Virus record (IMG/VR): IMGVR_UViG_3300028393_000282
Coordinates: 1 to 27,736 of that record
From: a virus
DNA: 27,736 nt
Direction: 5' to 3' (one strand)
Shown here: positions 3,055-19,212 of the stretch, piece by piece
Layout of the letters: each line of letters begins with the position of its first letter
Numbering within the stretch: the first letter of the stretch is position 1
Notes under the pieces: model-generated
Seen by the model: only the letters and a program-made list of their open reading frames with translations
Databases searched by the model: none
What the model was told of the DNA's origin: nothing
Made by a program: the position numbers and the translations under genes

Positions 3055-3966
3055 TTACTGACCCATTGCTTTTTTTGTATAAAGGGTATGGTTAATAAGA
3101 GCAGATGGTAGAAGCTCTACTCTACTGGCTCTTGTAGGATTAATATCAAGAGATCCACGACGAGCGTAAAGAAGAGTTACAGCACAGTCAATTACAGCTG
3201 GATGACCCATAATGCTTGTATAAAGCTTTTCAGCACAAAATTCATGAAACTCATTTACTTCTCTCAAAGAAACAACTTGCTTGAAGAGTGAAACAGGGTT
3301 AACTTCACAACCCTTCGTTACAATGCGAATATAGGCCGTACCTGTATCTTTCTGCTTTGTATGTCTGCAACGCGATCTCAAAGCGTTTGTAAAATACTTA
3401 CACTCAACAATCTCTTCACCGTCTGTAAGAGAGTAGAATTTAAGATGCTCTTCCTTTGAAGCGTAATCTGTAATTTCTGTACTAAAATGAATCTTATCAG
3501 TAAGATCTACATAACCGTAAACAGGATCAGCGGCGCTAGTATCAGCTCCGGAGCGGAAAAATTTAACTGAAACAGGTGTCTTAAGAACGTTCTCAAGATC
3601 TGTACGAATCTGATTCTCATAATTGTCAATAGCTTGAGCGTATGTTTCTCCCATCTTACACATATCAAATGAATTACAGTAAAGCTTAGCAGACTTTGAC
3701 TCTACCATGAACTCTGAATCGCATGAATAAACATACTTGAGGGTACCTGCTACTGGTACTCCACTATTAAGAAGGAATGTAGCTTCGTGACAATGCCAGG
3801 TATCGTACCCAACAAAACTATCTGCTTTAATATTCCAATCGTCTCGTGCAAGAGAACGAGGCATTGGGTTAAGCAATGATGGATCAAACGTATCGGTGTA
3901 TACTGCATACGAAGCCGAAGATCCTAAAGACTTCGATGCAATGTCATTCATGTTAGTTGTACTCAT
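3055..3966 (-). CDS. queF: QueF-type NADPH-dependent preQ0 reductase (nitrile reductase)
   Basis: QueF reduces the nitrile of 7-cyano-7-deazaguanine (preQ0) to the aminomethyl base preQ1. At 303 residues this is the long, two-domain (E. coli-like) type. Family landmarks are clear. They are the DTFDPSLLNPMPRSLARD start, VESKSAKLYCNSF at about 88-100 (the E-S-K-S signature), the catalytic Cys200 in SRCRHTKQKD with Asp207 seven residues on, NEFHE at 238-242, and YARRGSLDINPTR near the end. All the expected catalytic residues are present, so it is probably active. It is the last gene of a four-gene operon and overlaps the kinase stop by ATGA. Beside dpdA its likely role is DNA modification rather than tRNA queuosine. 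Confidence 0.93.
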   Translation of the reverse strand: MSTTNMNDIASKSLGSSASYAVYTDTFDPSLLNPMPRSLARDDWNIKADSFVGYDTWHCHEATFLLNSGVPVAGTLKYVYSCDSEFMVESKSAKLYCNSFDMCKMGETYAQAIDNYENQIRTDLENVLKTPVSVKFFRSGADTSAADPVYGYVDLTDKIHFSTEITDYASKEEHLKFYSLTDGEEIVECKYFTNALRSRCRHTKQKDTGTAYIRIVTKGCEVNPVSLFKQVVSLREVNEFHEFCAEKLYTSIMGHPAVIDCAVTLLYARRGSLDINPTRASRVELLPSALINHTLYTKKAMGQ

Positions 3967-4520
3967 AATTCGTAAAAATCGTTGTTGTGTATTTCTACCT
4001 CTTTATCTTGTAAAGCTACAAAGAATTGTCTAGCACGTTCTTCAACAGAGCCACTAAGCCTTACAACAGGTATTGCATATGATTTAATAATACAATCAAA
4101 AGATTGCACTACACTATCGAAAAAATCTTTATTAACCGTTCGTTGACCATCCTCTATAAGAGGTAATTCCGGCTCAACATAGAAAATGATATCGTATCTA
4201 TCAATCATTACCAAAAACAAATCTCTAATAATATCTAACACTTTAAGATCTTTTATTAAAGCCATTGAATAAGCATAACCATCTAAAGCACAACGGTCGT
4301 AAATCCTATCACCTTTTTCGTTAAGACGTTGAAGATGTTTAGTCATAATTGCAAGCTGAGTTACTTCATCACCGTCTTCATTAATATTATACCCCGCTTT
4401 CTGCATACCTCTTGTTAAAGAAGTTTTAAACTTAAAATCAGTAAGTACATTTATATCTTGTAAATACTTTACAAGAGTAGTTTTACCTTGACTATGAGCT
4501 CCTGAAATAGCTATCTTCAT
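3963..4520 (-). CDS. P-loop kinase-like NTPase inside the DNA-modification operon
   Basis: This 185-residue protein has a Walker A loop GAHSQGKT at 7-14 at the extreme N-terminus. It resembles the AAA_28/NadR-like and deoxynucleotide or thymidylate kinase groups. A DRCALDGYAYS segment (about 80-90) looks like the nucleobase or lid region of such kinases, and a FYVEPELPL strand follows. The substrate cannot be read from the sequence. It could be a dNMP kinase serving replication or an enzyme of base modification. It overlaps the formyltransferase stop and the queF start, each by ATGA, so it is translationally coupled to both. This placement argues for a role in the same pathway, although DpdA-based modification needs no nucleotide kinase. 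Confidence 0.85.
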   Translation of the reverse strand: MKIAISGAHSQGKTTLVKYLQDINVLTDFKFKTSLTRGMQKAGYNINEDGDEVTQLAIMTKHLQRLNEKGDRIYDRCALDGYAYSMALIKDLKVLDIIRDLFLVMIDRYDIIFYVEPELPLIEDGQRTVNKDFFDSVVQSFDCIIKSYAIPVVRLSGSVEERARQFFVALQDKEVEIHNNDFYEL

Positions 4521-5056
4521 GCACTATATATTAAATGCTTATTCAAAAAAGTAAACCATAAATTCGTAGCATCATCATGTAATGTTTTAATAGTTTTATC
4601 TAAAGTTAATCCTTCAATAGAAATATAACTATGTTCAAATATTTCCCCAGCATCAAGTTCTGCTATACAACGATGAATTGTATTACCTGAAAAAACAAGT
4701 TTTTGTTCATAAGCCATCTTTTGAGGGTCCTTACCTTTTAATTCTGGATTATGTATAAGATTAGCAGGGTGAAGATTATATATTTCATGACGTTCACAAA
4801 CAATAGGTGGAATAATTCTTAACCAACCGTGAAGTGTTACAAGAGAATTATCAGAAATAAAATGTAAATATTCTCCAGCTGAAGGGTTTTTATTAATCTG
4901 AAATATTACTGACCCGTACTCTTCTAAAAGAGATGAATTAATACCCGTTAAATCCTGTTTATTAGTAATAATAAGATCTGGTACTTTATTGAGTTTTTTA
5001 GAAACTCTATAAATTTCTGATCCTGTCTGACTAAAAAACGCTATCCATTTTTTCAT
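4517..5056 (-). CDS. PurN-fold formyltransferase, candidate dPreQ1 formyltransferase (DpdN-like)
   Basis: The fold is that of 10-formyltetrahydrofolate-dependent formyltransferases such as PurN. The LHGWLRIIPP segment is at about 75-84 and IYNLHPANL at 92-100. The second carries the Asn94-x-His96 catalytic pair, and AELDAGEIF at 132-140 supplies the conserved Asp135. At 179 residues it is slightly short of PurN (about 212). It overlaps dpdA and the kinase gene by ATGA at each end. Work on phage 7-deazaguanines has proposed a dPreQ1 formyltransferase, named DpdN, that makes 7-(formylamino)methyl-7-deazaguanine in DNA. The operon context fits that role. A purine-synthesis or sugar formyltransferase is the alternative. 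The link to DpdN is inference. Confidence 0.8.
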   Translation of the reverse strand: MKKWIAFFSQTGSEIYRVSKKLNKVPDLIITNKQDLTGINSSLLEEYGSVIFQINKNPSAGEYLHFISDNSLVTLHGWLRIIPPIVCERHEIYNLHPANLIHNPELKGKDPQKMAYEQKLVFSGNTIHRCIAELDAGEIFEHSYISIEGLTLDKTIKTLHDDATNLWFTFLNKHLIYSA

Positions 5057-5898
5057 GAACAGAACTTTCTAAAGAGCGATGTATTATAAAAAGCTAATTC
5101 GAGCTGTTCACGGGTTATATTAGCTCCGATATAATCAACAAGCTTTACTGACCATTTTTCATGTAAACCGTAAACAGGATTGTACTTTTTATAAAGAATA
5201 GCTGCTACAATAGGGTTAGATGTATCAATTGTTGTAATATCTTTCTTAAAGGGTGCATTATTATAGAGTATAAACTCCCAAGGAGTTGCACAACCTAAAA
5301 GGTGATGCTTTTTATTAGGTAGTAATATCTTATCATTATAAAGACGGTATAATAATGCTGCTCTACCAAGGGTATACCGTACCCACTTATTTAACTCAAG
5401 TCCTTGAGCCCAAATAGGTAGTGGATCAGTATCCTTCATATAATCATCCCGTGTATTCCATTCATTAAGATAAAACGAATAATCAAAAGATATAGCTATT
5501 TTATCGACACGAGGTGCAATATAGTTGTAACAATCAGCAATTTCCTTATATGTCTTACCTTGAACCACACCAATCTTTCTACCTGGAAGAGAATAGTCAC
5601 TACTAAACTTTTTAAAACTTTCAATAGTGCCTTCAGCACTTTCTAATACATCAGGTATAATATACTCGGTTGGACAAAGCTCTTTAACCCAAAAAGCAAA
5701 CTCTTTAGGGTTGTAGGAAGTTCCAAGTTCAAAAATACTATTATCAAGCAATACATGTCTACCCATATCAACAGATTCCTTATAAAATTTAAGATATTCT
5801 GGTTGTTCAGGTAATAAGTGTACTAAACAATAATCATAATCGTTATAACCTCTAGATGTTTCTAGAAGACTGATAGGTGTTTCGTGACTTATAAGCAT
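5053..5898 (-). CDS. dpdA: DpdA-like DNA guanine transglycosylase (TGT superfamily)
   Basis: DpdA enzymes replace guanine in DNA with a 7-deazaguanine base by transglycosylation. This 281-residue protein follows the TGT TIM-barrel plan. VLLDNSIFELG at 49-59 carries Asp52, in the place of the general acid/base Asp of TGT. GVVQGK at 110-115 matches the TGT QG loop. HHLLGCATPWEFILY at 198-212 matches the TGT MGVGxPED segment. TTIDTSNP at 222-229 carries Asp225, the likely nucleophile. The C-terminal Cys-rich zinc site of tRNA TGT is absent, which fits the DNA-acting DpdA families. Its first-gene position and ATGA coupling to the formyltransferase set the modification pathway. The DpdA subfamily cannot be fixed by eye. 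Confidence 0.88.
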   Translation of the reverse strand: MLISHETPISLLETSRGYNDYDYCLVHLLPEQPEYLKFYKESVDMGRHVLLDNSIFELGTSYNPKEFAFWVKELCPTEYIIPDVLESAEGTIESFKKFSSDYSLPGRKIGVVQGKTYKEIADCYNYIAPRVDKIAISFDYSFYLNEWNTRDDYMKDTDPLPIWAQGLELNKWVRYTLGRAALLYRLYNDKILLPNKKHHLLGCATPWEFILYNNAPFKKDITTIDTSNPIVAAILYKKYNPVYGLHEKWSVKLVDYIGANITREQLELAFYNTSLFRKFCS

Positions 5899-5903
5899 AA
5901 ATA
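5896..5903 (+). promoter_or_regulatory. Late-promoter-like box before the small plus-strand gene
   Basis: The box CATAAATA lies 13 bases before the ATG at 5917. It matches the T4 late consensus TATAAATA in seven positions and the looser NATAAATA form known from T4-like cyanophages. Spacing is similar to the exact box at 23697, which lies 11 bases before its ATG. It overlaps the first codon of dpdA on the opposite strand. Confidence 0.35.
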
Positions 5904-5916
5904 TTGTACAATAATA

Positions 5917-6156
5917 ATGTCAAATGCAGATAATATCAAGTATTTTGTTTATAAAAGAATGGTTCATGTAATAAAAGTGGGCCCGATATATATTTGGAAT
6001 ACAGCCTCCACTACAAAAAGCGATTGTATAGACAAAGCTTTAAAACATTTCAAAATAAAATCAGAGCGTTTTTTAAAATTTAAAGGAGCTGAAATTATTA
6101 AACTTTTTATTAAAGAAATAAGAGTTCAAGAAAATAATTCAAATAAATCTGTTTGA
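5917..6156 (+). CDS. Small rightward gene of unknown function (79 aa)
   Basis: I do not recognise this protein. The frame extends upstream to 5884, but that start would overlap dpdA, so the ATG at 5917 is preferred. It leaves 18 bases to the divergent dpdA start. The protein is basic, with strand-like KRMVHVIKVGPIYIWNT followed by helical segments (DCIDKALKHFKIK, GAEIIKLFIKEIR). It is the only plus-strand gene inside the leftward block, and its last 31 bases overlap the 3' end of the polymerase gene tail to tail. No minus-strand frame fills this 227-base gap. A late-type box lies just upstream. It may be a late or regulatory gene, or a chance frame. Confidence 0.5.
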   Translation: MSNADNIKYFVYKRMVHVIKVGPIYIWNTASTTKSDCIDKALKHFKIKSERFLKFKGAEIIKLFIKEIRVQENNSNKSV

Positions 6157-8669
6157 ACTTCTTTACCTATAATTGGTAAATACCATCCAATAGCTTCGTA
6201 AACACTCTCTATTGGTGGTGCTACAATTTTTTCAAACATTTTATCATAATCAATTTTTATTTCACTAAATTCTTTTGGATACTCAGTAATAAACGCTACT
6301 GCTTCTAAACCGTAAGGGTTTTTACTAGCATAAAAATACTTAACTTTTTGACCTGGTCTGATTAATTCGTATTTATTCTGTAAATTAAATTTTTCTAAAA
6401 GTAAATTATAAGCAAGAGCGGCTTTAACATGGCCCGGGGTACCTTTATTAAATTTGTTTAAAGAAGCTCCTTCAGCATATTTTTCTGGCTCTTTAACAGA
6501 TCTTCTAAACGAAGCTTCTGATATACTTAAATTTCTAAAAAGATCATAAGCCTCTCTATAGATTTCATTTGTCTTTTTTACATCTTTTGTAAGAAATGCT
6601 GTTTCAATTGTTTTTTGAATAATAGCTTTAACTTCTTTTGGAGTTGTAGATCTAGCAAGCTCTACTCCGACATATTTAAATTTATTTGTAGTAACACCTT
6701 CTTCATCAAGAATACGAAGGATGTAACGTTTCTTTTGTAAAAAAGAACCTACATCAGCTATAGCTTCGCGCTTGAAGACAAATCGTGGGTCGATAGAATT
6801 TAATTCTTCTTTTGCCCATTCGAGAATTTTAATACTTAGATGTTTATCAATAGAATCTACAATAGTATGTACTTCAGGTACTATGATACATTCTTTAGCT
6901 AAATTAATGCCAAGCTTATCTAAAATAGGCTGTATGGTTATATATAAAGAATCAGTATCACCGCTTAAGATTAATGTTTCATTAACATTGAAAATATCTT
7001 TTGCGTATTGATCAATAATATTGCCTCCAGCCTTAGCTACTGCTTGTCCCGTTAAAGTAATAGATGAAGCGTTATCAATATCCATAAACGCTGAATGTTT
7101 ATTAGCAAATGTACCGTAAATGGAATTAAGAAGAATTTTTAGTGTGTATTGTAGTGTATCAAAATATTGAATTGAATCAATTGTATCTTTATCTTTTTTC
7201 TTAGATTTTTTGAGCTCTATCATTCGATTACGTGCATACACACGTTCATCGTAGATACTATTAATTAAGTTAGGACAAACACCTTTAAATTTTTGTGAAT
7301 ATAATACACCTGCTTTAGATACGGCTATCTTTTCTTCTTTTATAAATTTTCGAAACTTATCTGTACTGATTGTTGAAAGCTTACCATTAGCGAGCTTTAT
7401 TTCTAACTCATTATCTACTTCTAGATCTCCTGTAACAATCTTTCCTAATTTTGTTTCTGGAGAGATATTAAGAGTTATAATTGTGTTTGGGTATAGAGAA
7501 TTAACGTCAAAGCTTACAATCGATTCTTTGAGGCCTCTAACAGGTTCTCTCACGTATCCGCCTTCTAAAGCTTCTCTCGTTACATCATTCTTAAACGTAG
7601 GAATAATATATCCTTGTTTTAAGGCTTGTAGTGACATCGCACCTGTTACGATTGATACTTTACCTAAAGCTCTTTCAAAGTTTGTACAGCCTTTGTATGC
7701 AAGTAAACGAATAATTTTAAGATAATTTAATTTATCTTCAAGTTTACGAAGAAGATCAACATCCTGAATATTATAATCAACAAAATTATCCCAGTCTGTA
7801 TCAGCTAGTGTAGACAAATTTGTTGCGTTAATTGCTAATTTACCTTCATTAAGTTCATATTCAGCAATGTAATTTAAAGAGTAGGACTCTCTATCACCTT
7901 TTGAATATGTTTTGTAAATTTCCATATAATCAAGACAACTAACACCGGATATATACCAACGTCCAATGTCTTTACCAAATTTTTGAAAATTTTCTCTATA
8001 GTTAATTTCTCTTACCGGGGATAATTGACGAATAAATTCTTCACCAAGTAATTTTTTAGCACGGTTAATAATATACGGGATATCAAAATGTTCAGTATTC
8101 CACCCTGTAAGAATATCTGGAGGGTCCTTTTTCCAAAAATCTATAAACTTTTCAAATAACTCACATTCATCTTTACATTTATAATATGTAACATTGCTCA
8201 ATGTAGGTTTGTAATCTTTCTTTAATCCCCAGGTATGAATCTTACCTGTAATAGTATCAAGTATAGTGATTAATGTTACAGGGTCTTTAGCTTTAGTAGG
8301 AACTGGAAACTCATTAGGTGAGTAAGTTTCAATATCAATAAAATATACTTTTAACGGAAACTTACTAAACTCTTCTTTATGTACTTCTTCTTTAAAAGAA
8401 TCAATAAGGAATTGTTGATCAACGGGTAGGTTACCGAAGAGTCGGTTTGTTTTTGTATCAGTAACAAATCTATTACGATCAAAAGAATTTTTAAAATAAT
8501 ACTTCTTTAAGGGTGTTTTAAAAATAGATATAGCATCAGCAGCTCCATCTTTTTCTGTATATAGATAAGGAGTAAACGGAAAATCTGTATCTATTCTATC
8601 TCCCTCTTCCGTCCAAGTACGGAGGTGTACCACACCTTCTCTAGAATTATAGTAAGCGTTTCTATACAC
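6126..8669 (-). CDS. 43: Family B replicative DNA polymerase, gp43-type
   Basis: This 847-residue protein has both 3'-5' exonuclease and polymerase domains, close to T4 gp43 (898). Exo I is FIDIETY with Asp112/Glu114, Exo II is GWNTEHFDIPY with Asp196, and Exo III is YNIQDVD with Tyr299/Asp303. Polymerase motif A is SFDVNSLYPN with Asp388, in which the usual final Ser is Asn. Motif B is KILLNSIYGTFANK at about 511-524, and motif C is SGDTDSLY with Asp571/Asp573. The C-terminus QTDLFELFS looks like a sliding-clamp-binding peptide. The start is GTG, because an in-frame TAG lies 12 bases upstream with no ATG between. It stops at TGA directly after the clamp peptide. Confidence 0.97.
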   Translation of the reverse strand: MYRNAYYNSREGVVHLRTWTEEGDRIDTDFPFTPYLYTEKDGAADAISIFKTPLKKYYFKNSFDRNRFVTDTKTNRLFGNLPVDQQFLIDSFKEEVHKEEFSKFPLKVYFIDIETYSPNEFPVPTKAKDPVTLITILDTITGKIHTWGLKKDYKPTLSNVTYYKCKDECELFEKFIDFWKKDPPDILTGWNTEHFDIPYIINRAKKLLGEEFIRQLSPVREINYRENFQKFGKDIGRWYISGVSCLDYMEIYKTYSKGDRESYSLNYIAEYELNEGKLAINATNLSTLADTDWDNFVDYNIQDVDLLRKLEDKLNYLKIIRLLAYKGCTNFERALGKVSIVTGAMSLQALKQGYIIPTFKNDVTREALEGGYVREPVRGLKESIVSFDVNSLYPNTIITLNISPETKLGKIVTGDLEVDNELEIKLANGKLSTISTDKFRKFIKEEKIAVSKAGVLYSQKFKGVCPNLINSIYDERVYARNRMIELKKSKKKDKDTIDSIQYFDTLQYTLKILLNSIYGTFANKHSAFMDIDNASSITLTGQAVAKAGGNIIDQYAKDIFNVNETLILSGDTDSLYITIQPILDKLGINLAKECIIVPEVHTIVDSIDKHLSIKILEWAKEELNSIDPRFVFKREAIADVGSFLQKKRYILRILDEEGVTTNKFKYVGVELARSTTPKEVKAIIQKTIETAFLTKDVKKTNEIYREAYDLFRNLSISEASFRRSVKEPEKYAEGASLNKFNKGTPGHVKAALAYNLLLEKFNLQNKYELIRPGQKVKYFYASKNPYGLEAVAFITEYPKEFSEIKIDYDKMFEKIVAPPIESVYEAIGWYLPIIGKEVQTDLFELFS

Positions 8670-8708: not shown

Positions 8709-9956
8709 TTATAAATTACACTCTTTAAGATATTTTCTATCTGGTGAACCAAACGGTGTAGTGTAAGCTTCGAGATGTTTATTGAGATTTCTTTCATCTT
8801 CGAGCCAAAACCTCTCTGCATGCTCTCTAGAACGCTTGCAAAGTTTTGTATATCTATCTTGATCCTTAAGAGCATATTTGATTTGATCGATAAACTCATC
8901 TCCGGTCTTGTATTTAAGAGTGGCGTCTTTATACGTAACCATATCAGGACAAATACAGGGTAATCCAATTGCACCTGACTCAATAAGTTTAATATTACTC
9001 TTAGCACGATTAAAATTATTGTCTTCAAGAGCAGCAAAACAAAGCTGTGTACCTGAGTTAGCCATTACGCTAGGAAAGTCTGGAAGCTGTGCCCACTCTT
9101 TATATACAATTTGACCAGCGTCAATAAGTGGTTTAAGTGGGAGTGGGTAGCAACCGTAAAACTGCCACTTAAACATAGTACGTGTTTTAATAACAGCATC
9201 GACTATAGCAGAAAAATCATCTCGTTGACCAGTTCTGTTAGTAACATCGACATGTGTACCGGAGGCAAAGATTGATATAACTGGCTTCTTTTTATTTTTA
9301 TCGTAATTCTTGATAAGACTATTGAGATTGTAAAAACGATCAAACCACCCTCTGGAAAGGTAATTAGGTATAACTGTAGTATTTTTATTACCAGTTTTAT
9401 CAATAAAGTAATCACGCATGAAATCACATGTAACAGTAATTTCATCACACATACCCATAATATCTAATATGCTACCGCGAATTTCATCTGATGTAAAAGC
9501 GTCTTTATTGCGATTAAAATCAGGTATATCTTCACGAAAGACAATATCATCAATTTCGTAAATAAGTCTAAAACCAACTTGCTTAGAAATTTCTTTAAGC
9601 ATCTTAACAAATTCTCTCTGAATAGGTGTAGCTTGACGTTGAATTTTTACAGCAGAGATGCCTTGATAAAACCTTGGATCTAATACCATTGTAGTAAGCT
9701 CGGAAATAACGGCTTTATTATAGAGATTAAGCATCATGTTTGGAGCCATACAGCGATACCAGCTACAGCCGCCATAGTCAGCTAAATAGTTAATGGCTCT
9801 TGGTAAACCTTGTCCCGGTATTTCAGGAGGAGGTAATTCGGTGTTTGGAGGTAATGGCAAGACTTGACACGTATTAGGTAGCCCTGGTGGTAGTCCTAAT
9901 GGTGCACCCATGTTATGTGCTATACCGGAGTGATTAGTTAAAAATGATAATTGCAT
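8709..9956 (-). CDS. GT4-like (GT-B) glycosyltransferase with a proline-rich N-terminus
   Basis: This is a predicted retaining glycosyltransferase that moves a sugar from a nucleotide sugar to an unknown acceptor. The N-terminal Rossmann half has YGGCSWYRCMAPNMML near 60-75, IYEIDDIVF near 139-147 and a VIPNYL linker. The C-terminal half has SIFASGTHVDVTN and KSNIKLIESGAIGLPCI, the E-x-x-x-G-x-P pattern of GT4 donor sites. Residues about 18-53 are very rich in proline, glycine and leucine, which is unusual for the family and may be a flexible tail. It lies alone between gene 46 and the polymerase, outside the main glycan cassette. T4 has its clamp and loader genes in this interval. Confidence 0.85.
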   Translation of the reverse strand: MQLSFLTNHSGIAHNMGAPLGLPPGLPNTCQVLPLPPNTELPPPEIPGQGLPRAINYLADYGGCSWYRCMAPNMMLNLYNKAVISELTTMVLDPRFYQGISAVKIQRQATPIQREFVKMLKEISKQVGFRLIYEIDDIVFREDIPDFNRNKDAFTSDEIRGSILDIMGMCDEITVTCDFMRDYFIDKTGNKNTTVIPNYLSRGWFDRFYNLNSLIKNYDKNKKKPVISIFASGTHVDVTNRTGQRDDFSAIVDAVIKTRTMFKWQFYGCYPLPLKPLIDAGQIVYKEWAQLPDFPSVMANSGTQLCFAALEDNNFNRAKSNIKLIESGAIGLPCICPDMVTYKDATLKYKTGDEFIDQIKYALKDQDRYTKLCKRSREHAERFWLEDERNLNKHLEAYTTPFGSPDRKYLKECNL

Positions 9957-9961
9957 AGGGT

Positions 9962-11755
9962 TTATAATATATAAGTAAAATTATTCTTTTTTTCCAGGAA
10001 AATTGTATTGTCAACTTTAGCAGTTATTGCTGTACCACGATGAGTAATAATATAACAATTTTCGTTATATTTTTCTGTTCTTTCCCGTAGTATTCTTAAT
10101 ACTAACTCAACACCTTTATCATCTAAAGAAGAATCGAGTAATTCATCATAAAATATGGTACTAAAGTGTACGTCTCCCTGCATTCTTCTAATATCTAAAA
10201 ACGCAAATAAGCATGCTAAATCTATACGCTTACGTTCTCCACCTGAAAAATTAAAATATGACTTTTCTTCGCCTTTTTCATCAGTGATTGTTTCATCAAA
10301 ATATTCATTAAATTGACAAAGACAATTAGCGTGCAAAGCTTCAAGATAATAACCAAGACGAGAATTAAGAATCTGTAATATTTTTTTAACAATATAAGAT
10401 TTTACTCCTTCTTCTGAAACTACAAACTTTACACATTCAAGAACGGAAAGTTGATGATCTAAATTGTTTATCTCAGCCTTATTAATATTGCATTCATTTT
10501 CGAGCTCAGAGACACTTTGTTCTAAAATAAAATTTGTTTCGTAAGCTATACTTTGCTGTTCTTTTAAAGATTCATCGTTATTATCAGTTAGTAAGGTAAT
10601 TTTTGTTTGTAAATTAATATTATTAGTTTTAATTTTGTTAAGACCTTCTTTCTTAGATTCAAAAGTTTTTATTTCTAATTTTTTATTTGTTTCTTTATCT
10701 TTAAATGAATCAACAATATTAATAGCAGTTTGTCTATCCTGTAAGAGTAAACTTAGCTGATCATTAATTTCTTTTTTATTTTGTTCCTTATGTTTAATGT
10801 CGTCTTCTGGAAAAGGTCGCTTACATGTTGTACAGCTCGATCCAACATTTTCAAGATCTTTAAGCTGTTTTTCAAGCATACTAATGTTAGTACGTATTGT
10901 TGTTAATGTATTATCAGCATCTCTACGATTATCTTGAATATCATTAAGTTCGTTGTTAAGAATATCTATTTTTTTAATTAAAAGGTCGTCTACGTTTTTA
11001 GGTAGCACAACTATTTGTTCTTTTAAACTATCTATTTTTACTATATTAAGAGCAATTTTATCTGCAATTGTCTGTATTCTACTATTTTTATTCTCTTCAA
11101 ATTGATCTAATTGCTGCTTATTAGTGTTATAATTTTTTTCTATAACTTCATTTTTTGAATATATAATTTCATAATCTTTTTTAAGATTGTTATATTCATC
11201 TCTTGTTAGAGAGAGCATATCAGAGAACGCTTCAAGATTTAAAACGCTTTCAATAAATTTGCGTTTATCAATTTTACTCTGTGCCATAAACGGTACAGTG
11301 TTATTAATTGTCATTATAACGGAATTTTGAAATATTTTTCCTGTAGAGCGTAAAAGTTTTTGTATAAACTCATTTGTTTTCGCCATTGTAGAGTGTGTTA
11401 TATCTACACCATTTTTAGATAAAAAACACTTAGTAGGAGATAGTGTTCTAACAATTTGATATGTATTTGTATTACCGTTGTTAATAATTTGTAATTCTAA
11501 TTTAACTTCACAAATTTTTTTAGTAAAAGAGTTTGTAATAAGATCTTTATTAATTTCTCTAATTGTTGTTCCAAACAAAGCAAAATATAAGGCGTCTATA
11601 ATAGTAGATTTACCTACACCGTTTTTTGAATCTTCTTTATCGTAATTAATACCAGTAATTACGTTTACACCAGGCTGAAAATTAACTACAGCGGGTGTAT
11701 TACCTACAGAAAGAAAATTCTTAATTGTTAATGTTTTAAAATTAATTAACCGCAC
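9962..11755 (-). CDS. 46: gp46-type recombination nuclease subunit (SbcC/Rad50 ATPase)
   Basis: With gp47 this protein should form the Rad50-Mre11-like complex that resects DNA ends before UvsX loading. The 597 residues are close to T4 gp46 (560). The Walker A motif NGVGKST is at 45-51. Long coiled-coil arms (about 180-300 and 320-430) flank a zinc hook CTTC at 308-311. The ABC signature is NFSGGERKR at about 503-511, and the Walker B/D-loop is FYDELLDSSLDD. The start is GTG and no in-frame ATG precedes MRLINFKTLTIKNFLS, which matches the usual N-terminus. Its partner gene 47 is separated by the glycan cassette, whereas in T4 the two are adjacent. Confidence 0.95.
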   Translation of the reverse strand: MRLINFKTLTIKNFLSVGNTPAVVNFQPGVNVITGINYDKEDSKNGVGKSTIIDALYFALFGTTIREINKDLITNSFTKKICEVKLELQIINNGNTNTYQIVRTLSPTKCFLSKNGVDITHSTMAKTNEFIQKLLRSTGKIFQNSVIMTINNTVPFMAQSKIDKRKFIESVLNLEAFSDMLSLTRDEYNNLKKDYEIIYSKNEVIEKNYNTNKQQLDQFEENKNSRIQTIADKIALNIVKIDSLKEQIVVLPKNVDDLLIKKIDILNNELNDIQDNRRDADNTLTTIRTNISMLEKQLKDLENVGSSCTTCKRPFPEDDIKHKEQNKKEINDQLSLLLQDRQTAINIVDSFKDKETNKKLEIKTFESKKEGLNKIKTNNINLQTKITLLTDNNDESLKEQQSIAYETNFILEQSVSELENECNINKAEINNLDHQLSVLECVKFVVSEEGVKSYIVKKILQILNSRLGYYLEALHANCLCQFNEYFDETITDEKGEEKSYFNFSGGERKRIDLACLFAFLDIRRMQGDVHFSTIFYDELLDSSLDDKGVELVLRILRERTEKYNENCYIITHRGTAITAKVDNTIFLEKKNNFTYIL

Positions 11756-11789
11756 TAGTTTAGTATAATAAAAATATGTTAAGAATCAA

Positions 11790-12620
11790 CTAAACAAGTT
11801 TCCAATTTTGTGTATATAATTCTTTTATATTCCAGTTAATTTTACTACAGTGTAATAACTGTCTATTTAAATATTCAATTGTAATTTTATTCCAGTCTTT
11901 TGTAAAAATAATAGGTAAATGTTTAAATTGACTAAAACATTCATGATCTTCAACAATAGGAACAGACTGTAGATATAGACATTCCCAAATTCGATGACTA
12001 TCTACTCCATTTCCGTGTGGACAAATTGTAAAATAACTCTTAGATATGTCTCTCCAATATTCATTATTAGGCTTTTTACTCCGCATAAGAATACCGTTTT
12101 TTCTTGTAACTTGATCGCATATACTGCGCTTAGAAAATTGCTTAGAAAAATTTGTACCTGAATCAAAATTTTTAAACACTAAATTATTTTTAATATTATT
12201 TTCACTACGAATATTGTTAATAAGCTGTTGATTGCCATGAGGCCATTGACCGTTAGCAATACCTATTGGTAATGAATATAGTTTAGGATGATTTATATAT
12301 CTGTTTTGACAAAACCATTTTTTAATATTTGTAGATTCAAGATATTTTAAATGTTGTTCGTTAATATCATGGTCAGAATTATGTGTAACAATAATAGTAC
12401 CTTTTTGTAAGTATGGTAAAAATTTGTTCATAAAGTCATGAACAAAATGAGAATAAACAAAAATCGTTTTAAATTGTTTAATTATTTCTACTGATGTATC
12501 TGCTATACGTAAGAGGTTTTGTTGTTTATTTTTAATTTGATCATCAATAATGCAGTTATTTTCACTAAAAAAACTTACTTCAGTTAAACTTTGAAACTCT
12601 TCACCTGAAATAATATTCAT
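11790..12620 (-). CDS. Exostosin-like (GT47-type) glycosyltransferase
   Basis: The C-terminal half of this 276-residue protein carries YFTICPHGNGVDSHRIWECL followed by YLQSVPIVEDHECF. This is the exostosin/GT47-type nucleotide-sugar site, in which a Gly-rich turn precedes an Arg/Trp-Glu helix and an SVPIV strand. The N-terminal half (IFVYSHFVHDFMNKFLP, GTIIVTHNSDHD, LYSLPIGIANGQWPHG) fits the acceptor half of such enzymes. Donor and acceptor are unknown. It is the downstream end of the glycan cassette, 34 bases before gene 46. An A-rich stretch with no Shine-Dalgarno sequence precedes the ATG. The interrupted methyltransferase ends three bases upstream of its start. Confidence 0.75.
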   Translation of the reverse strand: MNIISGEEFQSLTEVSFFSENNCIIDDQIKNKQQNLLRIADTSVEIIKQFKTIFVYSHFVHDFMNKFLPYLQKGTIIVTHNSDHDINEQHLKYLESTNIKKWFCQNRYINHPKLYSLPIGIANGQWPHGNQQLINNIRSENNIKNNLVFKNFDSGTNFSKQFSKRSICDQVTRKNGILMRSKKPNNEYWRDISKSYFTICPHGNGVDSHRIWECLYLQSVPIVEDHECFSQFKHLPIIFTKDWNKITIEYLNRQLLHCSKINWNIKELYTQNWKLV

Positions 12621-12623
12621 TTT

Positions 12624-13115
12624 TTAATTAAAAGCTACAACTGAAAAAGCCCAATACAAATCTCTTTCGCTATGAATAATATCTTTATATTTTAATTTAT
12701 GTAAAACATCTTTAATATGAGACGGGTAAAATAAATGATAATGTTTTCTATTGTTTTGTGAGTTCCAGTATTCCATGTCAGGGTGTGGTAAGTATAAAAA
12801 TAAAACACCACCTTTTTTAAGATGCTTTTTTCAATATTCTAAAGCTCCAACATAATCTGCTAAATGTTCGAGAGTGTGACTACTAAAAATATAGTCGTAT
12901 TTTCTTTTAGGTAAATTAAATGCATCATATTCATCGTCAATAACAATATTAATCGGCTTAGCACCAGGTAATGTCCACTTATTAAAACCGCCAATATCTA
13001 TTCCTTCTCCAGTACAAAAATGTTGTGCAAGAGGTAGTATAAACGAGCATGCATTTCCTTTCTTAATATAAGAAGGATAAAGATTGTTGTTATATTTAAA
13101 TATATTTTTATTCAT
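12624..13115 (-). pseudogene. SAM-dependent methyltransferase interrupted by an in-frame TGA
   Basis: The open part (12831-13115, 94 residues) contains EGIDIGGFNKW, a SAM-binding motif I, and DYIFSSHTLEHL, a later methyltransferase strand. It ends ...YVGALEY then TGA at 12833-12831. The same frame continues without another stop for 68 codons as KKHLKKGGVLFLYLPHPDME and onward to WAFSVVAFN and TAA at 12626-12624. The continuation is ordinary methyltransferase sequence. Related proteins have Trp at the interruption (EYW-KKHLKKGG), so a TGG to TGA change explains it. TGA is a genuine stop in several neighbours, so a recoded genetic code is unlikely. It is probably a recent nonsense mutation. A sequencing error or suppression is possible. 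Confidence 0.82.
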
Positions 13116-13121
13116 AATAAT

Positions 13122-13736
13122 TTATTGTTTTTTAAACACCGCTGTAAGTATATTTTTATTTTCTCCTTTACGTATAGTATCTTCTATTTCAGAAAAATTT
13201 AAACAACTAAAACCTATCTTTTTAAAAAAAGATATTAAAGACTTATCATTAAAGTGGTGTAAATGTTCATTTGGTTTTCTATGCTTCCAGTTAGAAAACC
13301 ATTCGTCTGAATGATAGTGACACCAAGGTAAACTTATATAAACGTAATTACATTTAATACTACATATTTCGTAAATATCTTCAAAATGTTCTAATACATC
13401 AAAAAATGAAACAACATCATAGTGTCTGTCTATTAAGGATGTTACTTGTTTAGTACCTTCAGGTGGAGGAAGTGTAGTGATATCATATCCGTAACACTCG
13501 GGTATAATTTCTTTACACACTTTTAAAAAATCACCTGACCCGTACCCTACATCTAAAATAGATGTAGGTATATGTCCTATACTGCCTATTAAGTATCCAA
13601 GTCTAAGGTACCCCATACTTAGAGTTTTAGGATACTTATAATAACTATTTTTAATATAATCTACATCATAGGTAATAACATTAAAATTTTGTTGATGAAT
13701 AATACCACATTCATCTGTTTCATAATTATCTATCAT
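13122..13736 (-). CDS. Class I SAM-dependent methyltransferase
   Basis: This 204-residue protein has motif I SILDVGYGSGDFL at about 59-71, a motif II acid in YGYD, and a DVVSFFDVLEHFED strand-helix near 107-120 typical of the Methyltransf_11/23 families. HHFNDKSLISFFKKIGF near the C-terminus is also characteristic. The methyl acceptor is unknown. Its place among glycosyltransferases suggests sugar O-methylation. The adjacent interrupted methyltransferase is only distantly similar, so the two are not a simple duplication. No Shine-Dalgarno sequence is present before the ATG, and the upstream 30 bases are almost all A/T. Confidence 0.87.
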   Translation of the reverse strand: MIDNYETDECGIIHQQNFNVITYDVDYIKNSYYKYPKTLSMGYLRLGYLIGSIGHIPTSILDVGYGSGDFLKVCKEIIPECYGYDITTLPPPEGTKQVTSLIDRHYDVVSFFDVLEHFEDIYEICSIKCNYVYISLPWCHYHSDEWFSNWKHRKPNEHLHHFNDKSLISFFKKIGFSCLNFSEIEDTIRKGENKNILTAVFKKQ

Positions 13737-13769
13737 ATATTACGTATTATATTATAATGTAACAAAAAA

Positions 13770-14495
13770 TCAAATTATTTCAATGTAATTTGTATTAGAA
13801 AATGTATAGGTGTAGCTTTTATGCGGTAAGTATTTTGTAGGAGTAATAATATCTATTTTAACATCACTACCTGTTTGATGTTTTATTGTTGATGCTAAAA
13901 CTGATTGACCTGAAAATAGTGCAATAAACTGTTTAGCAGAAGCTATAGCATCTGAAAATGTTTTTAAATCATTAATATCTATTGTAGGTATATTTTCATT
14001 TTTACAAAAATCTTTACTATAATCTACTTTAGTATGAGTAATATAAATTATATCTTGTTTTTTAATACCAAGACTTGTTACGGCGTTTTTGATCTTTTGA
14101 AGATCATATTCGTGTTGAATACTATGTGTTGTAAAATTAATTAAAATTTTATCTTTATATTCTTCTATATACTTTGGTGTATAATAAATTTTAGGATATT
14201 CATAAACAGTATTAAACCCGTATACTTTTTGTAAAACTTGTATGTGGTTAACAGACGTATTTTCAAATTGTTTACATCTATCTAACCACGTTAAGTCTGT
14301 AAAATCTATCTTTTCTTTTTCAATATACGGGTTTAATTCCCATACAAAGTTATTAATATCGTTGTTTCTACAGGCATTCTGTTTAGATAGATAACATTTT
14401 ATATTATTTTGAAAGCATAACTCCGGTATAATAGAATGCGCTAAATTATCCCCTAAACCGCCCCAGGGCTGATAAATGACTATATTCCGTTCCAT
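13770..14495 (-). CDS. GT9-like glycosyltransferase, first of two paralogues
   Basis: The N-terminal PWGGLGDNLAHSIIPELCF is the glycine-rich start seen in heptosyltransferase-like (GT9) proteins. The frame is open to 14531. I choose the ATG at 14495 because it gives MERNIVIYQPWGGLGDN, which aligns with the paralogue at 16038-16775 (MNKKIILNLDVWGGLGDN). Both share WGGLGDN, RNN, VW-x-x-NPYI and a late FSGQSVLAS / LSGNHCLAA segment. Length is 241 residues, shorter than ordinary heptosyltransferases (about 340). The start overlaps the 3' end of the fucosyltransferase-like gene by 16 bases. Donor and acceptor are unknown. Confidence 0.75.
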   Translation of the reverse strand: MERNIVIYQPWGGLGDNLAHSIIPELCFQNNIKCYLSKQNACRNNDINNFVWELNPYIEKEKIDFTDLTWLDRCKQFENTSVNHIQVLQKVYGFNTVYEYPKIYYTPKYIEEYKDKILINFTTHSIQHEYDLQKIKNAVTSLGIKKQDIIYITHTKVDYSKDFCKNENIPTIDINDLKTFSDAIASAKQFIALFSGQSVLASTIKHQTGSDVKIDIITPTKYLPHKSYTYTFSNTNYIEII

Positions 14496-15166
14496 TCTGG
14501 TAAATATATAAAGGGGTGAAAGCTTGTACAATGTTTGGTAGGATAAAAAATGTTTTTAGCATTACTTAAAAATGCTATCCACCAGCTAAATGTACCATTA
14601 CTAATAATAATATTATTACATTTCCTGCCAAAATTAATCGTGTTAATTGCTGAATCTTCATAAAGATTCATATTATACTCTTTTATAAGTGTTTGAATAA
14701 AATCACTATTTGGTGAGTCACTAGCTATATAAATTTTATCGTATGTTAATTTTGATATACATTTCCGATAATACTCTATGCCAGGGTTAAAGCGTGTTGC
14801 ATCATCTAATCTTATATGAATAAACAAATCATTATTTTCATGTTTATCTAATTTAAATAAATACTTAATATCTTGTTTATATAATTTTATAAAATCTAAA
14901 TTTTGAAAAAAACCTTCATATAAAATACCGTGATTTAAATCCCCATTATATTGTAATAAGGGTATAAGATGTTCATCTTTATAATGAATAAACGTTTTAT
15001 TTATTTTTGTACCAGAGTAAAAATTAAAATTAAGAGTTTTACATTCTTCTACACTATAATATTCATGTACTTTATAATCGTATTTTTTAGCTAATAAAGC
15101 TAATCCAACATTTTGAAATATATGATTTCCAAGACGTGTACCTTCTATTTGTAAGAGCCTTAACAT
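14480..15166 (-). CDS. GT11-like alpha-1,2-fucosyltransferase
   Basis: Family GT11 enzymes transfer fucose from GDP-fucose. The N-terminal GTRLGNHIFQNVGLALLAKK matches the GT11 LGNQMFQY-type start. LFIHIRLDD at about 114-122 corresponds to the HxRRxD motif, though the second Arg is Leu. IISNGTFSWWIAFLSNAKNI near 190-209 matches the SNSSFSWW motif. The length of 228 is shorter than typical GT11 proteins (about 290). No GDP-fucose synthesis gene is visible in this window, so the donor must come from elsewhere in the phage or from the host. The relaxed Arg motif leaves substrate specificity open. Confidence 0.78.
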   Translation of the reverse strand: MLRLLQIEGTRLGNHIFQNVGLALLAKKYDYKVHEYYSVEECKTLNFNFYSGTKINKTFIHYKDEHLIPLLQYNGDLNHGILYEGFFQNLDFIKLYKQDIKYLFKLDKHENNDLFIHIRLDDATRFNPGIEYYRKCISKLTYDKIYIASDSPNSDFIQTLIKEYNMNLYEDSAINTINFGRKCNNIIISNGTFSWWIAFLSNAKNIFYPTKHCTSFHPFIYLPEWNGI

Positions 15167-15169
15167 ATT

Positions 15170-16033
15170 TTAAACATATAAATGTAATTTCTTAGAATGT
15201 ATATGTAAATTACAAATAGGTATTTTTATTCCGTTATAAATCGTATAAGGTTTTTTATCAAAAACAACTTCTATCTTTTTATCAATTATAGCGTCCCCAA
15301 TATAGTGAGCTCTTTCAGCATATCCTGGCGGGTGGTTGTGATTTGTACCTCCTACGTATTGACCGTAAGATGCTCCATCAAATAATGTACCTAAGTTATC
15401 AAAATTATCATTTCCTGGCTTAAATGGTAGAATTGGTAAATAATCTATCGTACCTGGTTTGTAATTGTAGATAATATCAATTAATTGCATTTCCGATAAA
15501 TGCGGATATTTAGTTGCCTGTATAACATAACTATGCCCTTTTCTTAATAACTGATCTAAGCATTTATTAAATTTTGTAAAATGTTCTAAACTATTGCAAT
15601 AAACAAACCCTGCTGAGCTTTGCTGATATCCAACTCGAGTAAAGTAAATTGACGGTGATAAACAGTCTAAATGTTTAAAATCAGAATATATAAGATTGTC
15701 GTATTCAAGGTGAATAAACTTATCTATATTGTTTTTCTTACAATATGTATAAAGTACAAATAATCTAAAAAGAGAAGTATACCAAAAAGGACACCAAACA
15801 AGATAGGTAAAATACTCCTTACACTTTCTATAAAATTCAATTGACTCTTCTTTCATATGATTATCAATATAATCATTAGATAAAATAATTGGCTCTGTGT
15901 TTAAATACTTTTTAGTTTGATTTATGCTGACTTGAGCGTAAGAAGGAATCTGTTCAAATACCCACTGAACAGGGGTAAATTCGTGACCGTAAGGTAATTT
16001 TTTATAATCAATATGTACGTATATAGCTTTCAT
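15170..16033 (-). CDS. Putative GT-A-type glycosyltransferase, uncharacterised family
   Basis: This 287-residue protein begins MKAIYVHIDYKKLPYG. It has FIHLEYDNLIYSDF at about 106-119, where EYDN takes the place of a GT-A DxD metal site. A later GTLFDGASYGQYVGGTNH segment (about 215-232) resembles acceptor-side segments of uncharacterised glycosyltransferases in environmental phages and algae-associated viruses, which I recall only loosely. It lies between the GT9-like and GT11-like genes, with short spacers of 3 and 4 bases, so it is part of the same transcript. No substrate can be named. Confidence 0.6.
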   Translation of the reverse strand: MKAIYVHIDYKKLPYGHEFTPVQWVFEQIPSYAQVSINQTKKYLNTEPIILSNDYIDNHMKEESIEFYRKCKEYFTYLVWCPFWYTSLFRLFVLYTYCKKNNIDKFIHLEYDNLIYSDFKHLDCLSPSIYFTRVGYQQSSAGFVYCNSLEHFTKFNKCLDQLLRKGHSYVIQATKYPHLSEMQLIDIIYNYKPGTIDYLPILPFKPGNDNFDNLGTLFDGASYGQYVGGTNHNHPPGYAERAHYIGDAIIDKKIEVVFDKKPYTIYNGIKIPICNLHIHSKKLHLYV

Positions 16034-16037
16034 TTTA

Positions 16038-16775
16038 TTAAATTTTTATGTACTCAAAGTCACCTTCAAAGACAAAATATTTCATATTATAATATATTTC
16101 AGGTATAAAACAAGTTAAATTATTTCTTATAGCTGCAGCTAGACAATGATTTCCTGAAAGAGAGCAAATATATTTTTTACAGTTACGTATTATTTCACAG
16201 TATTCATTAATATTGTTTATTTCAATATACTCTACCGGTTTGTTAATAATTTCTTTAGTATAATCTGTAAATGTTTTATCGTTTTTTAAATTATTAAATT
16301 TAACAACTGTTAATTGCTCTTTAAAACTGTCAAAATATTTTTTCATATTTTGACGATGATAAATTTTATCCATTGTATTATTTTCGTTACTACAGGTAAT
16401 GTCAACAATTATCTTATTTTTAACATTAAAGATATCTTCTTTATTAAAATCATAATACAGTTCAGGTATTTTCCCGTACGGTGCTTCAAATTTAAATATT
16501 TTTTCCATGAGAGCTATCCAATGAGTAGAGCCGTCGTATCTAATAAGATTGTTATCAGCGATATTAATACCTTTTTTATTGGTAAAACCAGCTATATAGG
16601 GATTTTTATCCCAAACGAGGTTTTTTATTTCGTTATTACGCCAAGGAATACTATTAGAAATATAAACTCCTTTGTAGCCAAATTTTTCAAAAAAACGTCT
16701 TGGTATAGTAGACATTTGTAAATTATCTCCTAAACCTCCCCATACATCTAAATTTAAAATAATTTTTTTATTCAT
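16038..16775 (-). CDS. GT9-like glycosyltransferase, second of two paralogues
   Basis: The 245-residue protein begins MNKKIILNLDVWGGLGDN and is a paralogue of the protein at 13770-14495. It shares WGGLGDN, IPRRFFEK/IPELCFQN, RNNEIKNLVWDKNPYI and a C-terminal CKKYICSLSGNHCLAAAI. Identity between the two is clear at the N-terminus and weak in the middle, which suggests an old duplication. The gene ends one base after the two-domain glycosyltransferase gene begins its downstream spacing (16777), so the two are tightly packed. Function beyond a glycosyltransferase-like role is not known. Confidence 0.72.
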   Translation of the reverse strand: MNKKIILNLDVWGGLGDNLQMSTIPRRFFEKFGYKGVYISNSIPWRNNEIKNLVWDKNPYIAGFTNKKGINIADNNLIRYDGSTHWIALMEKIFKFEAPYGKIPELYYDFNKEDIFNVKNKIIVDITCSNENNTMDKIYHRQNMKKYFDSFKEQLTVVKFNNLKNDKTFTDYTKEIINKPVEYIEINNINEYCEIIRNCKKYICSLSGNHCLAAAIRNNLTCFIPEIYYNMKYFVFEGDFEYIKI

Positions 16776-16776
16776 A

Positions 16777-18423
16777 TTAATTCCAAGTATGCATTAAAAG
16801 TAAATCAGAGTCTGTTTGTTTTGCATTGTTAATAGTTTTGATAATTTCACTATCATTCCATGTTTGACCGATGTTAGAATCTTTACCAGTGTTATACTGT
16901 TTTATTTGTTTGTACTGGTATAAATTAGGGTAATATGTTTTTGTAAAATTACAATACATTTCATATTCAGAAAAATGATATAGTAAATTCATATTACTTT
17001 GTATTTTATTAATTAATTCTTCTGAAGAAGAGCAACTACAATAACTTAAAAACGAATTAATAATAGTTTTATTAAAAAAACCAATATCTCCAATGCCTGT
17101 ATGATCTAACGCTTTAGATATATTAAAAATTTTTTTAAGATATAAAAAATAAGGAAAATGATTTTGTTTCCAACCGTAATGCCAAATTGGTTGATTTTTA
17201 TCAAATGTCGCTAATGATTTTAATAAAACAGTATCACTATCTAGGACTAGATAATAATCTTTTTCAGTTATATTTTGAAAAAGTTTTAACATTTGCTGGT
17301 ACATCCAGTTCGGTCTATATGAAAAACTATTTCTATTTATATTAGGTAATATATCTTTATCTAAGTAAAAATTAACTTTACTGTCTTTAAATGATTCTAT
17401 CTTGTTTGGAGATACAATGTATATTTTATTAAATGTCTGATACTTGTAAATGCTTTCGAGTAAATAAGGTATCTTACATTCATCTTTTGGTGCGACGGGT
17501 ATAAAAATATCGTACCCGTCGTTAGGTACATCCTTATACCTTGTAAAACTATTATTAAAAGTTATCGTTGTCTCAGGAAACGGATTAAAACATTTTTGTT
17601 CTAGTTCGATTTCATTAGAAAAAGGTTGATACCACTTACAGTTGTTTACTGTAGGTCGCTTCATTAATACTTGCTGTACATAACTAAACCATAGTTGACC
17701 AATTAAAGTATTACGCTTAAACACATCTTCATTATAATAATTTTCAATTGTATCTTGACTTGATGTGCTGTTATGTTCTATATGAAAACATACAGGGGGT
17801 AGTTTATTAATAAATTTCGTTTTAACGAGGGTAGCAAGCATTGTTGCATAATACGTATCCCAATAAAAGCGTCCTAAGATAAGATCTTCAAAACTATTTC
17901 TTATTTGTAACCAAATATCTTTTTTTATAAGAAACACATCAAAACCGTGTACAGAATATGATTCAATTTTAGGTGTTTCGTTTAAAGATTCAATATCATA
18001 TATATGCATACGGCTAATAACGTAAGCTTCAGAATCGTCAATTTCTTTTAAGAGTCTATTTGAAACAATAATGTCGTTGTTTAAAAACAAAAAATAATCA
18101 CAGTCTGTACTAGCTAGTACATCAAATATTTCTTTTACAGATGGTAAAGCTTTATTGTTATTATCTATCTCGTTTTTTCTAGCATTATATTCGTTTGTTA
18201 ATCCTTCGTGTTGAAAATATTCATGTATTAGAGTGTTTGATTTTACTTTAAGATTATTGAGAGTGGTAAAACCATCGTAGTTAACATTTTCATTCTCAAA
18301 ACAAATATTATATAAATTAATATTGTCTTTTTTTATCTTTAATAAGCTTTCAATACAGAATAACTCTCTCTTATTAAGAAGACTTAAATTCTTAAACCCG
18401 TTTATACCAATAGATATTTTCAT
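16777..18423 (-). CDS. Two-domain glycosyltransferase, GT-A plus DUF6492-like
   Basis: This is the largest protein of the cassette (548 residues). Residues about 1-290 form a GT2/GT-A-like domain with DYFLFLNNDIIVS at 109-121 and a FHIEHNS segment near 213-219. Residues about 304-548 form a second domain starting YDIFIPVAPKDECKIPYLLE, with YRPNWMYQQMLKLF at 369-382 and YYLVLDSDTVLLKS at 390-403, as in DUF6492-type glycosyltransferases (DSD at 395-397). The fusion suggests two transfers by one protein, or a polymerising activity. Its start overlaps the upstream GT2 stop by ATGA. A Ser/Cys-rich loop (YCSCSSSEE) occurs near 465. Confidence 0.75.
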   Translation of the reverse strand: MKISIGINGFKNLSLLNKRELFCIESLLKIKKDNINLYNICFENENVNYDGFTTLNNLKVKSNTLIHEYFQHEGLTNEYNARKNEIDNNNKALPSVKEIFDVLASTDCDYFLFLNNDIIVSNRLLKEIDDSEAYVISRMHIYDIESLNETPKIESYSVHGFDVFLIKKDIWLQIRNSFEDLILGRFYWDTYYATMLATLVKTKFINKLPPVCFHIEHNSTSSQDTIENYYNEDVFKRNTLIGQLWFSYVQQVLMKRPTVNNCKWYQPFSNEIELEQKCFNPFPETTITFNNSFTRYKDVPNDGYDIFIPVAPKDECKIPYLLESIYKYQTFNKIYIVSPNKIESFKDSKVNFYLDKDILPNINRNSFSYRPNWMYQQMLKLFQNITEKDYYLVLDSDTVLLKSLATFDKNQPIWHYGWKQNHFPYFLYLKKIFNISKALDHTGIGDIGFFNKTIINSFLSYCSCSSSEELINKIQSNMNLLYHFSEYEMYCNFTKTYYPNLYQYKQIKQYNTGKDSNIGQTWNDSEIIKTINNAKQTDSDLLLMHTWN

Positions 18424-19211
18424 TTTCCGTAATTTTTACTTCTCATAATAAGCTGTTGAAGAGTTTTATCTTTAGACAAATCAGGGATTTGTGTTACATG
18501 ATGTCCGTGTTTATCAACAAATTTTGACCATTGTTCTTGAATTCTTTGTTCTCTAGAACCGTCTGAGCGATTTGCAGATTGTAAGCGACTAACGGCAACG
18601 GGATTATTCTCAATCAAAACATCTGACCCTGTTACATCTGCAAACCACCAAAAGGGAGCTGCATGACCTTCTTTAGACTCTCTATACGCCATATCAATAT
18701 CAAATGGATCTCTAAATTGTGTGTCATACAGACCAGTACTCTCAAAAGCTGTATAATGATGATACGTAAATTCATTGCACATATTTTTATAAAATGAAAT
18801 ACTTATTTCTGGTGTATATTCTATAGTGAGTCTAGGGGTTCTGCTACCTGGTTTTCCAGATTCCCAAGAAGTACTAACATAGGAAAAATATTTCAATCCA
18901 GAAATTTCTGATGCTTTAATATATTTTTCAAAAATACTAAAATCTTTAATAATCATATCATCTTCAATAAGAAAAATATGTTCACAGCCTCTATTCATTA
19001 AAAAATTAATAGCGTCGTTTCTACAAATAGCAGGGTAACAATTAACGCTATGTTGAATCCAATGACACTTGTAGTCTTCTTTATAATGATCACCACCATT
19101 AACAACTACTAATTCATTAATTTTATTAAGTGGAATAGATTTATAAAGAGATTTAAAATAATCTTCTGAATTGTATGTTACAATACCTATACCAATTTTA
19201 CCTTTTTCCAT
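18420..19211 (-). CDS. GT2-family glycosyltransferase, paralogue of the next gene
   Basis: The frame opens at 19226, but the ATG at 19211 gives MEKGKIGIGIVTYNS, matching the paralogue start MNKIGIGIITCDRP. It also leaves only one base after the stop of the short upstream ORF. The protein is then 263 residues. The GT-A donor site is IFLIEDDMIIKD, with Glu-Asp-Asp at about 83-85. Family members transfer a sugar from a nucleotide donor in the cytoplasm. Both paralogues share FEKYIKASEISG / FQKYIEASNLSG and FWWFADV / FRWFADI, so they are a duplicated pair. The acceptor is unknown. Confidence 0.83.
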   Translation of the reverse strand: MEKGKIGIGIVTYNSEDYFKSLYKSIPLNKINELVVVNGGDHYKEDYKCHWIQHSVNCYPAICRNDAINFLMNRGCEHIFLIEDDMIIKDFSIFEKYIKASEISGLKYFSYVSTSWESGKPGSRTPRLTIEYTPEISISFYKNMCNEFTYHHYTAFESTGLYDTQFRDPFDIDMAYRESKEGHAAPFWWFADVTGSDVLIENNPVAVSRLQSANRSDGSREQRIQEQWSKFVDKHGHHVTQIPDLSKDKTLQQLIMRSKNYGK

Positions 19212-19212
19212 A

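Follow-up and report, generated by a model that had tools for sequence, protein, structure and literature searches.

The window analyzed here is a 27.7 kb viral fragment with T4-like genes (a family B DNA polymerase and UvsX), and a 58 kb IMG/VR contig that matches it at 99.996% identity over its full length represents the same virus. On the minus strand, positions 3055–5898 hold four open reading frames (ORFs) joined by three ATGA overlaps of 4 nt each (5053–5056, 4517–4520, and 3963–3966), an arrangement that had been described in an initial annotation and that we confirmed from the ORFs. They encode a DpdA3-type (CP220/immuto-type) guanine transglycosylase of 281 aa (5053–5898), a DpdN-like, PurN-fold 10-formyl-THF formyltransferase of 179 aa (4517–5056), a P-loop kinase of the AAA_28/NadR-kinase/dNK-TMK superfamily of 185 aa (3963–4520), and QueF, the preQ0 to preQ1 reductase, of 303 aa (3055–3966). 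The same four-gene order occurs in the cultivated Flavobacterium phage vB_FspM_immuto (NC_055915) and in dozens of environmental contigs, and it is kept down to ~44–47% protein identity, indicating that it is not due to chance. The operon is another of the immuto kind, and its interesting part is the association with a kinase.

A conserved gene of 84–90 aa with no assigned function lies on the opposite strand and overlaps the start of the DpdA gene, both in the window (5884–6156, plus strand) and in a close relative, L003 (7761–8015, minus strand). Elsewhere in the window, at 8709–20132, glycosyltransferase-like and other sugar-related-looking genes stand amid recombination and replication genes.

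The four proteins of the operon

The transglycosylase was assigned by fold, homology, and profile alignment. A Pfam search returned no match, the TGT family included, and PHROG matches were to unnamed families only; a PDB sequence search with the DpdA profile also found nothing, so that a comparison of folds was needed. The AlphaFold (AF2) model is a barrel (mean pLDDT 90), for which VIA gave Z scores of 17.2 to archaeosine TGT, 16.4 to the DNA preQ0 insertase DpdA (7ui4), and ~16 to bacterial TGT, values that amount to ties, while the top Foldseek ranks were taken by murine TGT with queuine and Zymomonas TGT. Asp52 (LDNS), Asp83 (PD), and Asp225 (DTxxP) are invariant, including in Bacillus and Weizmannia phage relatives of 20–26% identity. 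The TGT fold and DpdA-type catalytic aspartates of the initial annotation both stand. The three aspartates match conserved DpdA1/2 positions when the profile of the diverse DpdA3 family is aligned by hhalign (probability 94.9), a level that the narrow DpdA3-family profile alone did not reach against DpdA1/2. If roles follow the known TGT mechanism, the putative catalytic residues are Asp52, Asp83, Gln113, and, as nucleophile, Asp225. Among annotated proteins, the nearest relatives are that of immuto, where it is named DpdA, and those of the Campylobacter CP220 group, with 43% identity to the DpdA of CP220 and of immuto (E = 8e-68 and 1e-57). This homology, together with a TGT fold bearing the general Asp and the nucleophile Asp, places the protein in DpdA3, a family name reportedly used by Cui et al. 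in 2023, and the enzyme is predicted to exchange guanine for a 7-deazaguanine. GenBank records name a Bacillus phage member of the family (BSTP12_038; L041, 7896–8684) as NadR, integrase, or polynucleotide kinase, and it looks misannotated.

The formyltransferase matches Pfam Formyl_trans_N (E = 2e-9), is 45% identical to its immuto homologue, and retains Asn94, His96, and Asp135, which align with the PurN catalytic triad. A PurN-fold enzyme whose site is Asn-His-Asp and whose gene accompanies those of DpdA and QueF is what we expect of DpdN, and the two are presumably the same; Cui et al. 2023 reportedly found formylated dPreQ1 and predicted the formyltransferase DpdN. We predict that the protein formylates preQ1 at its aminomethyl group.

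QueF carries both of its Pfam domains (QueF_N, E = 5e-23; QueF, E = 1.6e-7) and the catalytic Cys200 and Asp207 as first annotated, along with FHE at 240; the C-x6-D and FHE-type motifs are kept in all 117 related QueF ORFs tested. It matches PDB 3bp1 (E = 1e-32) and scores 170 bits on TIGR03138, below the NCBIfam equivalog cut-off of 293.

The kinase, assigned from Pfam (AAA_28, E = 7e-13), its model (pLDDT 80), and the survey of gene context below, has the P-loop kinase fold, Walker A, DR motif, and DGxR lid of the deoxynucleoside/nucleotide kinase superfamily. VIA matched the model about equally to NadR (Z 15.7), thymidylate kinase (TMK; 15.1), and deoxyadenosine kinase (14.4), and the substrate may be a nucleoside or a nucleotide. 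One homologous AAA_28 family is shared by CP220, immuto, and the window (32–37% identity). Streptomyces phages and Motura also carry distant AAA_28 kinases, and no annotated DpdA adjoins these, so the family is not exclusive to DpdA3 systems. Directly next to queE–queD on the 58 kb contig (16265–16897) lies a further AAA_28 kinase that shares 28% identity with the one in the operon, and CP220 likewise has a second copy (5416–5931).

Gene content around DpdA3 across phages

Scans of viral contigs for DpdA3 relatives yielded at least 541 and at least 516 stretches encoding one. Among the matches listed, 73 lineages (clusters at 90% identity) had enough flanking sequence for comparison: 33 carry kinase, formyltransferase, and QueF, 8 kinase and QueF without formyltransferase, 17 the kinase alone, 1 kinase and formyltransferase without QueF, and 14 none of the three nearby. 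A kinase thus lies within ~4 kb of DpdA3 in 59 of the 73 listed lineages, whatever their formyltransferase or QueF content. Of the 34 lineages with a formyltransferase among the matches listed, 33 also have QueF and every one has a kinase, and no listed lineage that lacks a nearby kinase has a formyltransferase or QueF. On the DpdA tree the formyltransferase changes state at least six times and QueF at least five, and one lineage with the kinase but neither of the other two (L109) groups within the well-supported clade to which the window belongs.

The initial annotation had left the role of its P-loop kinase-like protein unexplained. The kinase assignment holds, and the comparison adds that the gene constantly paired with DpdA3 is that of the kinase and not that of the formyltransferase. 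With the kinase constant and the other two genes changing on the DpdA tree, as in L109, DpdA3 and the kinase form a core to which QueF and the formyltransferase are added as modules. The kinase is kept without formyltransferase and QueF in L109–L111 and in CP220, which rules out a part for it in formylation; operons with QueF only or the kinase only are as expected if the formyltransferase acts on the preQ1 product. Swapping formylated, aminomethylated, and unreduced variants on a single DpdA3–kinase core would give phages a modular way to change the DNA chemistry that faces host defenses.

The partner is not always the same kinase. Four P-loop kinase families stand beside DpdA3 across phages. 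Besides AAA_28 there are TMK-like proteins, whose gene overlaps that of DpdA in Bacillus phages BSTP12 and Youna2. Cellulophaga phiST and Chryseobacterium MA9V-3 have an AAA_18-like protein immediately upstream of DpdA3, and Vibrio phage D479 has a T4-type deoxynucleotide monophosphate kinase (PF21448) that overlaps DpdA3. The AAA_28 kinase of one lineage (L190) also scores above the Pfam deoxynucleoside kinase cut-off. Systems of the DpdA1/DpdA2 type, such as those of phage 9g and Streptococcus phage Dp-1, resemble these loci in combining a TGT-fold DNA enzyme with preQ0 genes, but their transglycosylases are longer (median 306 aa vs 269 aa for DpdA3) and the kinase partner is absent from the controls: within ~3.5 kb of DpdA in ten named DpdA1/DpdA2 phages we found no small P-loop kinase, the sole P-loop ORF there being an exonuclease in R26L. 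At one DpdA1 locus from the environment (L180), a NadR-like ORF of 374 aa lies ~3 kb away.

Adjacency of the kinase is not universal, as the 14 listed lineages without one nearby make clear. When kinase-less DpdA3 contigs were searched whole, 5 of 13 records had an AAA_28 kinase elsewhere, and the complete genome of Brevundimonas phage StAshley, which has DpdA3, contained none of the kinase families searched for. In the T4-like relatives L208, L210, and L213 a thyX-like gene follows DpdA3 in the kinase's place, and AAA_28 kinases lie elsewhere on the L208 contig. We did not find the recurrent pairing of different kinases with DpdA3 described in the literature searched; it may be mentioned in Cui et al. 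2023 or Crippen et al. 2019.

Other genes also turn up next to DpdA3. GIY-YIG homing-endonuclease-like genes flank DpdA on both sides in L021 (3202–4005 and 5002–5796), and one lies between DpdA and the formyltransferase in L154 (6842–7648; Pfam GIY-YIG). In L003, phage bilin synthesis genes, for heme oxygenase and a ferredoxin-dependent bilin reductase, separate DNA polymerase from DpdA (6591–7780), and L004 and L028 have a gap of similar size at the same place. A uracil-DNA-glycosylase fused to a family A DNA polymerase directly follows DpdA3 in L200 (6808–9174; confirmed by Pfam in L200 only), and similar starts are seen in L202, L206, and L196.

Predicted product and preQ0 supply

We consider it likely that this DpdA3-type operon replaces genomic guanine by N-formyl-preQ1 (7-formylaminomethyl-7-deazaguanine). 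The phage would make preQ0, which QueF would reduce to preQ1; DpdA3 would put the 7-deazaguanine in the place of guanine. Either before or after this insertion, the PurN-like enzyme would transfer a formyl group from 10-formyl-THF to the nitrogen of the 7-aminomethyl group. The kinase would serve insertion, a step that all DpdA3 phages share, and not formylation, and the modified base may protect the DNA from restriction. The occurrence of the formyltransferase almost only with QueF, among the matches listed, lends the predicted product good support, and the gene order of immuto, the likeness to CP220 DpdA, the presence of queD and queE, and the intact QueF residues all argue for it; to be set against it, as far as sequence goes, are the resemblance of the formyltransferase to PurN and the lack of folE and queC on the 58 kb fragment.

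The initial annotation, finding no preQ0 synthesis genes in the window, had placed them elsewhere in the genome or left preQ0 to the host. For two of them the first alternative holds: queE (16899–17663 of the 58 kb contig) and queD (17656–18108) lie together 1.1–2.3 kb beyond the window end and ~22 kb from the operon. A search for folE and queC on the 58 kb contig, itself a genome fragment, did not find them; in the related contigs L011, L012, and L014 the helicase gene is followed ~2 kb downstream by folE, and queC is present in immuto, CP220, and one 230 kb relative. The immuto locus has the same order of DpdA, formyltransferase, thymidylate-kinase-like protein, and QueF, with proteins 37–45% identical to those of the window, and it differs in having one extra small ORF between DpdA and the formyltransferase, in clustering folE, queE, and queD upstream of the operon rather than at a distance, and in its DNA polymerase, which is of family A instead of B.

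By sequence the formyltransferase invites another reading, that of an ordinary purine or sugar enzyme placed here by chance, with dPreQ1 as the base in DNA. PurN was its best named match in a clean search, a PDB search from an alignment that included the E. coli PurN being biased, and PurN-like genes are known in cyanophages. The initial annotation had set just such a best match against its own proposal, and literally this is what was found, but the bit score and gene context override it. On the NCBIfam PurN equivalog the protein scores 32.9 bits (cut-off 150.1), which rules out identity with PurN, and Glu14 apparently replaces the Asn13 of the PurN phosphate loop. Moreover, the gene lies in or beside a DpdA3–kinase–QueF operon in 34 listed lineages and tracks QueF, making chance placement unlikely. 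Since QueF and the preQ0 genes supply tRNA queuosine in bacteria, the operon might instead raise queuosine in host tRNA. A formylated dead-end product would be senseless for queuosine, and the transglycosylase, with no Pfam TGT match, belongs to the DpdA3 family of CP220 and immuto and not to canonical TGT, a membership that leaves a tRNA role with almost no probability.

Route of base insertion

Why some phages replace every guanine and others only part has been a question since the Campylobacter phage reports. In CP220 and CPt10, 100% of dG is reported to be replaced by dADG, and partial modification is reported for several DpdA1/2 phages (PMC8306585). CP220 has adjacent DpdA and kinase genes orthologous to those of the window (43% and 35%) but has no QueF or formyltransferase beside DpdA3, which matches its different final base. 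The constancy of the kinase suggests that the insertion step involves nucleotides. It points to a kinase that serves base insertion itself, possibly through the nucleotide pool, an unproven idea that appears to conflict with the published view.

The literature is divided on the route, with a modified-dGTP route 'as proposed for Campylobacter phages' mentioned by Hutinet et al., 2019 (PMC6884629) and DpdA listed as a nucleic-acid-level enzyme in a 2025 paper (PMC12783734). We give roughly even chances to the latter kind of exchange, in which DpdA3 would act on finished DNA like other DpdA enzymes and the kinase would support it, for example by phosphorylating recycled nucleotides or by salvaging released guanine (through a phosphoribosyltransferase to GMP, then to GDP). 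The TGT fold and catalytic residues favor this, as does the fact that immuto, L246, and the 58 kb contig each carry a gene for a phosphoribosyltransferase, but it leaves unexplained why DpdA1/2 loci lack a nearby kinase and why several kinase families recur beside DpdA3. These facts would be accounted for if DpdA3 acted on free dGMP (or dG/dGTP), the kinase raised the modified nucleotide toward the triphosphate, and the phage polymerase incorporated it, so that replacement of guanine would be complete; we regard this as possible, though short of probable. Pairing independent of formyltransferase and QueF content and a kinase fold similar to deoxynucleoside kinase, TMK, and NadR speak for it, as do MazG-type proteins beside or near DpdA3 in L246, L195, phiST, and immuto; in this scheme MazG-type pyrophosphohydrolases would provide dGMP while reducing dGTP, much as MazZ/PurZ do in 2-aminoadenine phages. 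Against it, DpdA and TGT enzymes work on nucleic acid, phage nucleotide-metabolism regions often carry kinases and MazG, and StAshley has DpdA3 with none of the kinase families searched for. Infected cells reportedly showed no dADG phosphates in the 2019 study of Crippen et al., and Cui et al. in 2023 reportedly argued for post-replicative insertion.

We put forward, as a tentative idea, a contrast between two kinds of system: DpdA3 and a dedicated nucleoside or nucleotide kinase would act on the free deoxyguanosine nucleotide pool, so that all guanine is replaced before replication, whereas DpdA1/2 would edit finished DNA, with formyl and aminomethyl groups as exchangeable add-on modules. Pairing with four kinase families, which the DpdA1/2 controls examined do not show, points to one gene and one enzyme assay and makes the choice between a free-nucleotide and a finished-DNA swap testable.

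DpdA3 proteins have a slightly more acidic surface than DpdA1/2, a weak sign of a free-nucleotide substrate given the related sequences and small control set compared. A dGTPase role for the CP220 HD hydrolase was not supported: the protein is an HD + AAA_33 fusion, with no homologue detected near DpdA3 in the first locus set. Genomes with 2-aminoadenine (Z), whose systems comprise PurZ, MazZ, and DatZ, use another base and other enzymes, and a nucleotide-level route in DpdA3 phages is hypothetical; their layout of MazG, base-change enzyme, kinase, and polymerase resembles that near some DpdA3 genes.
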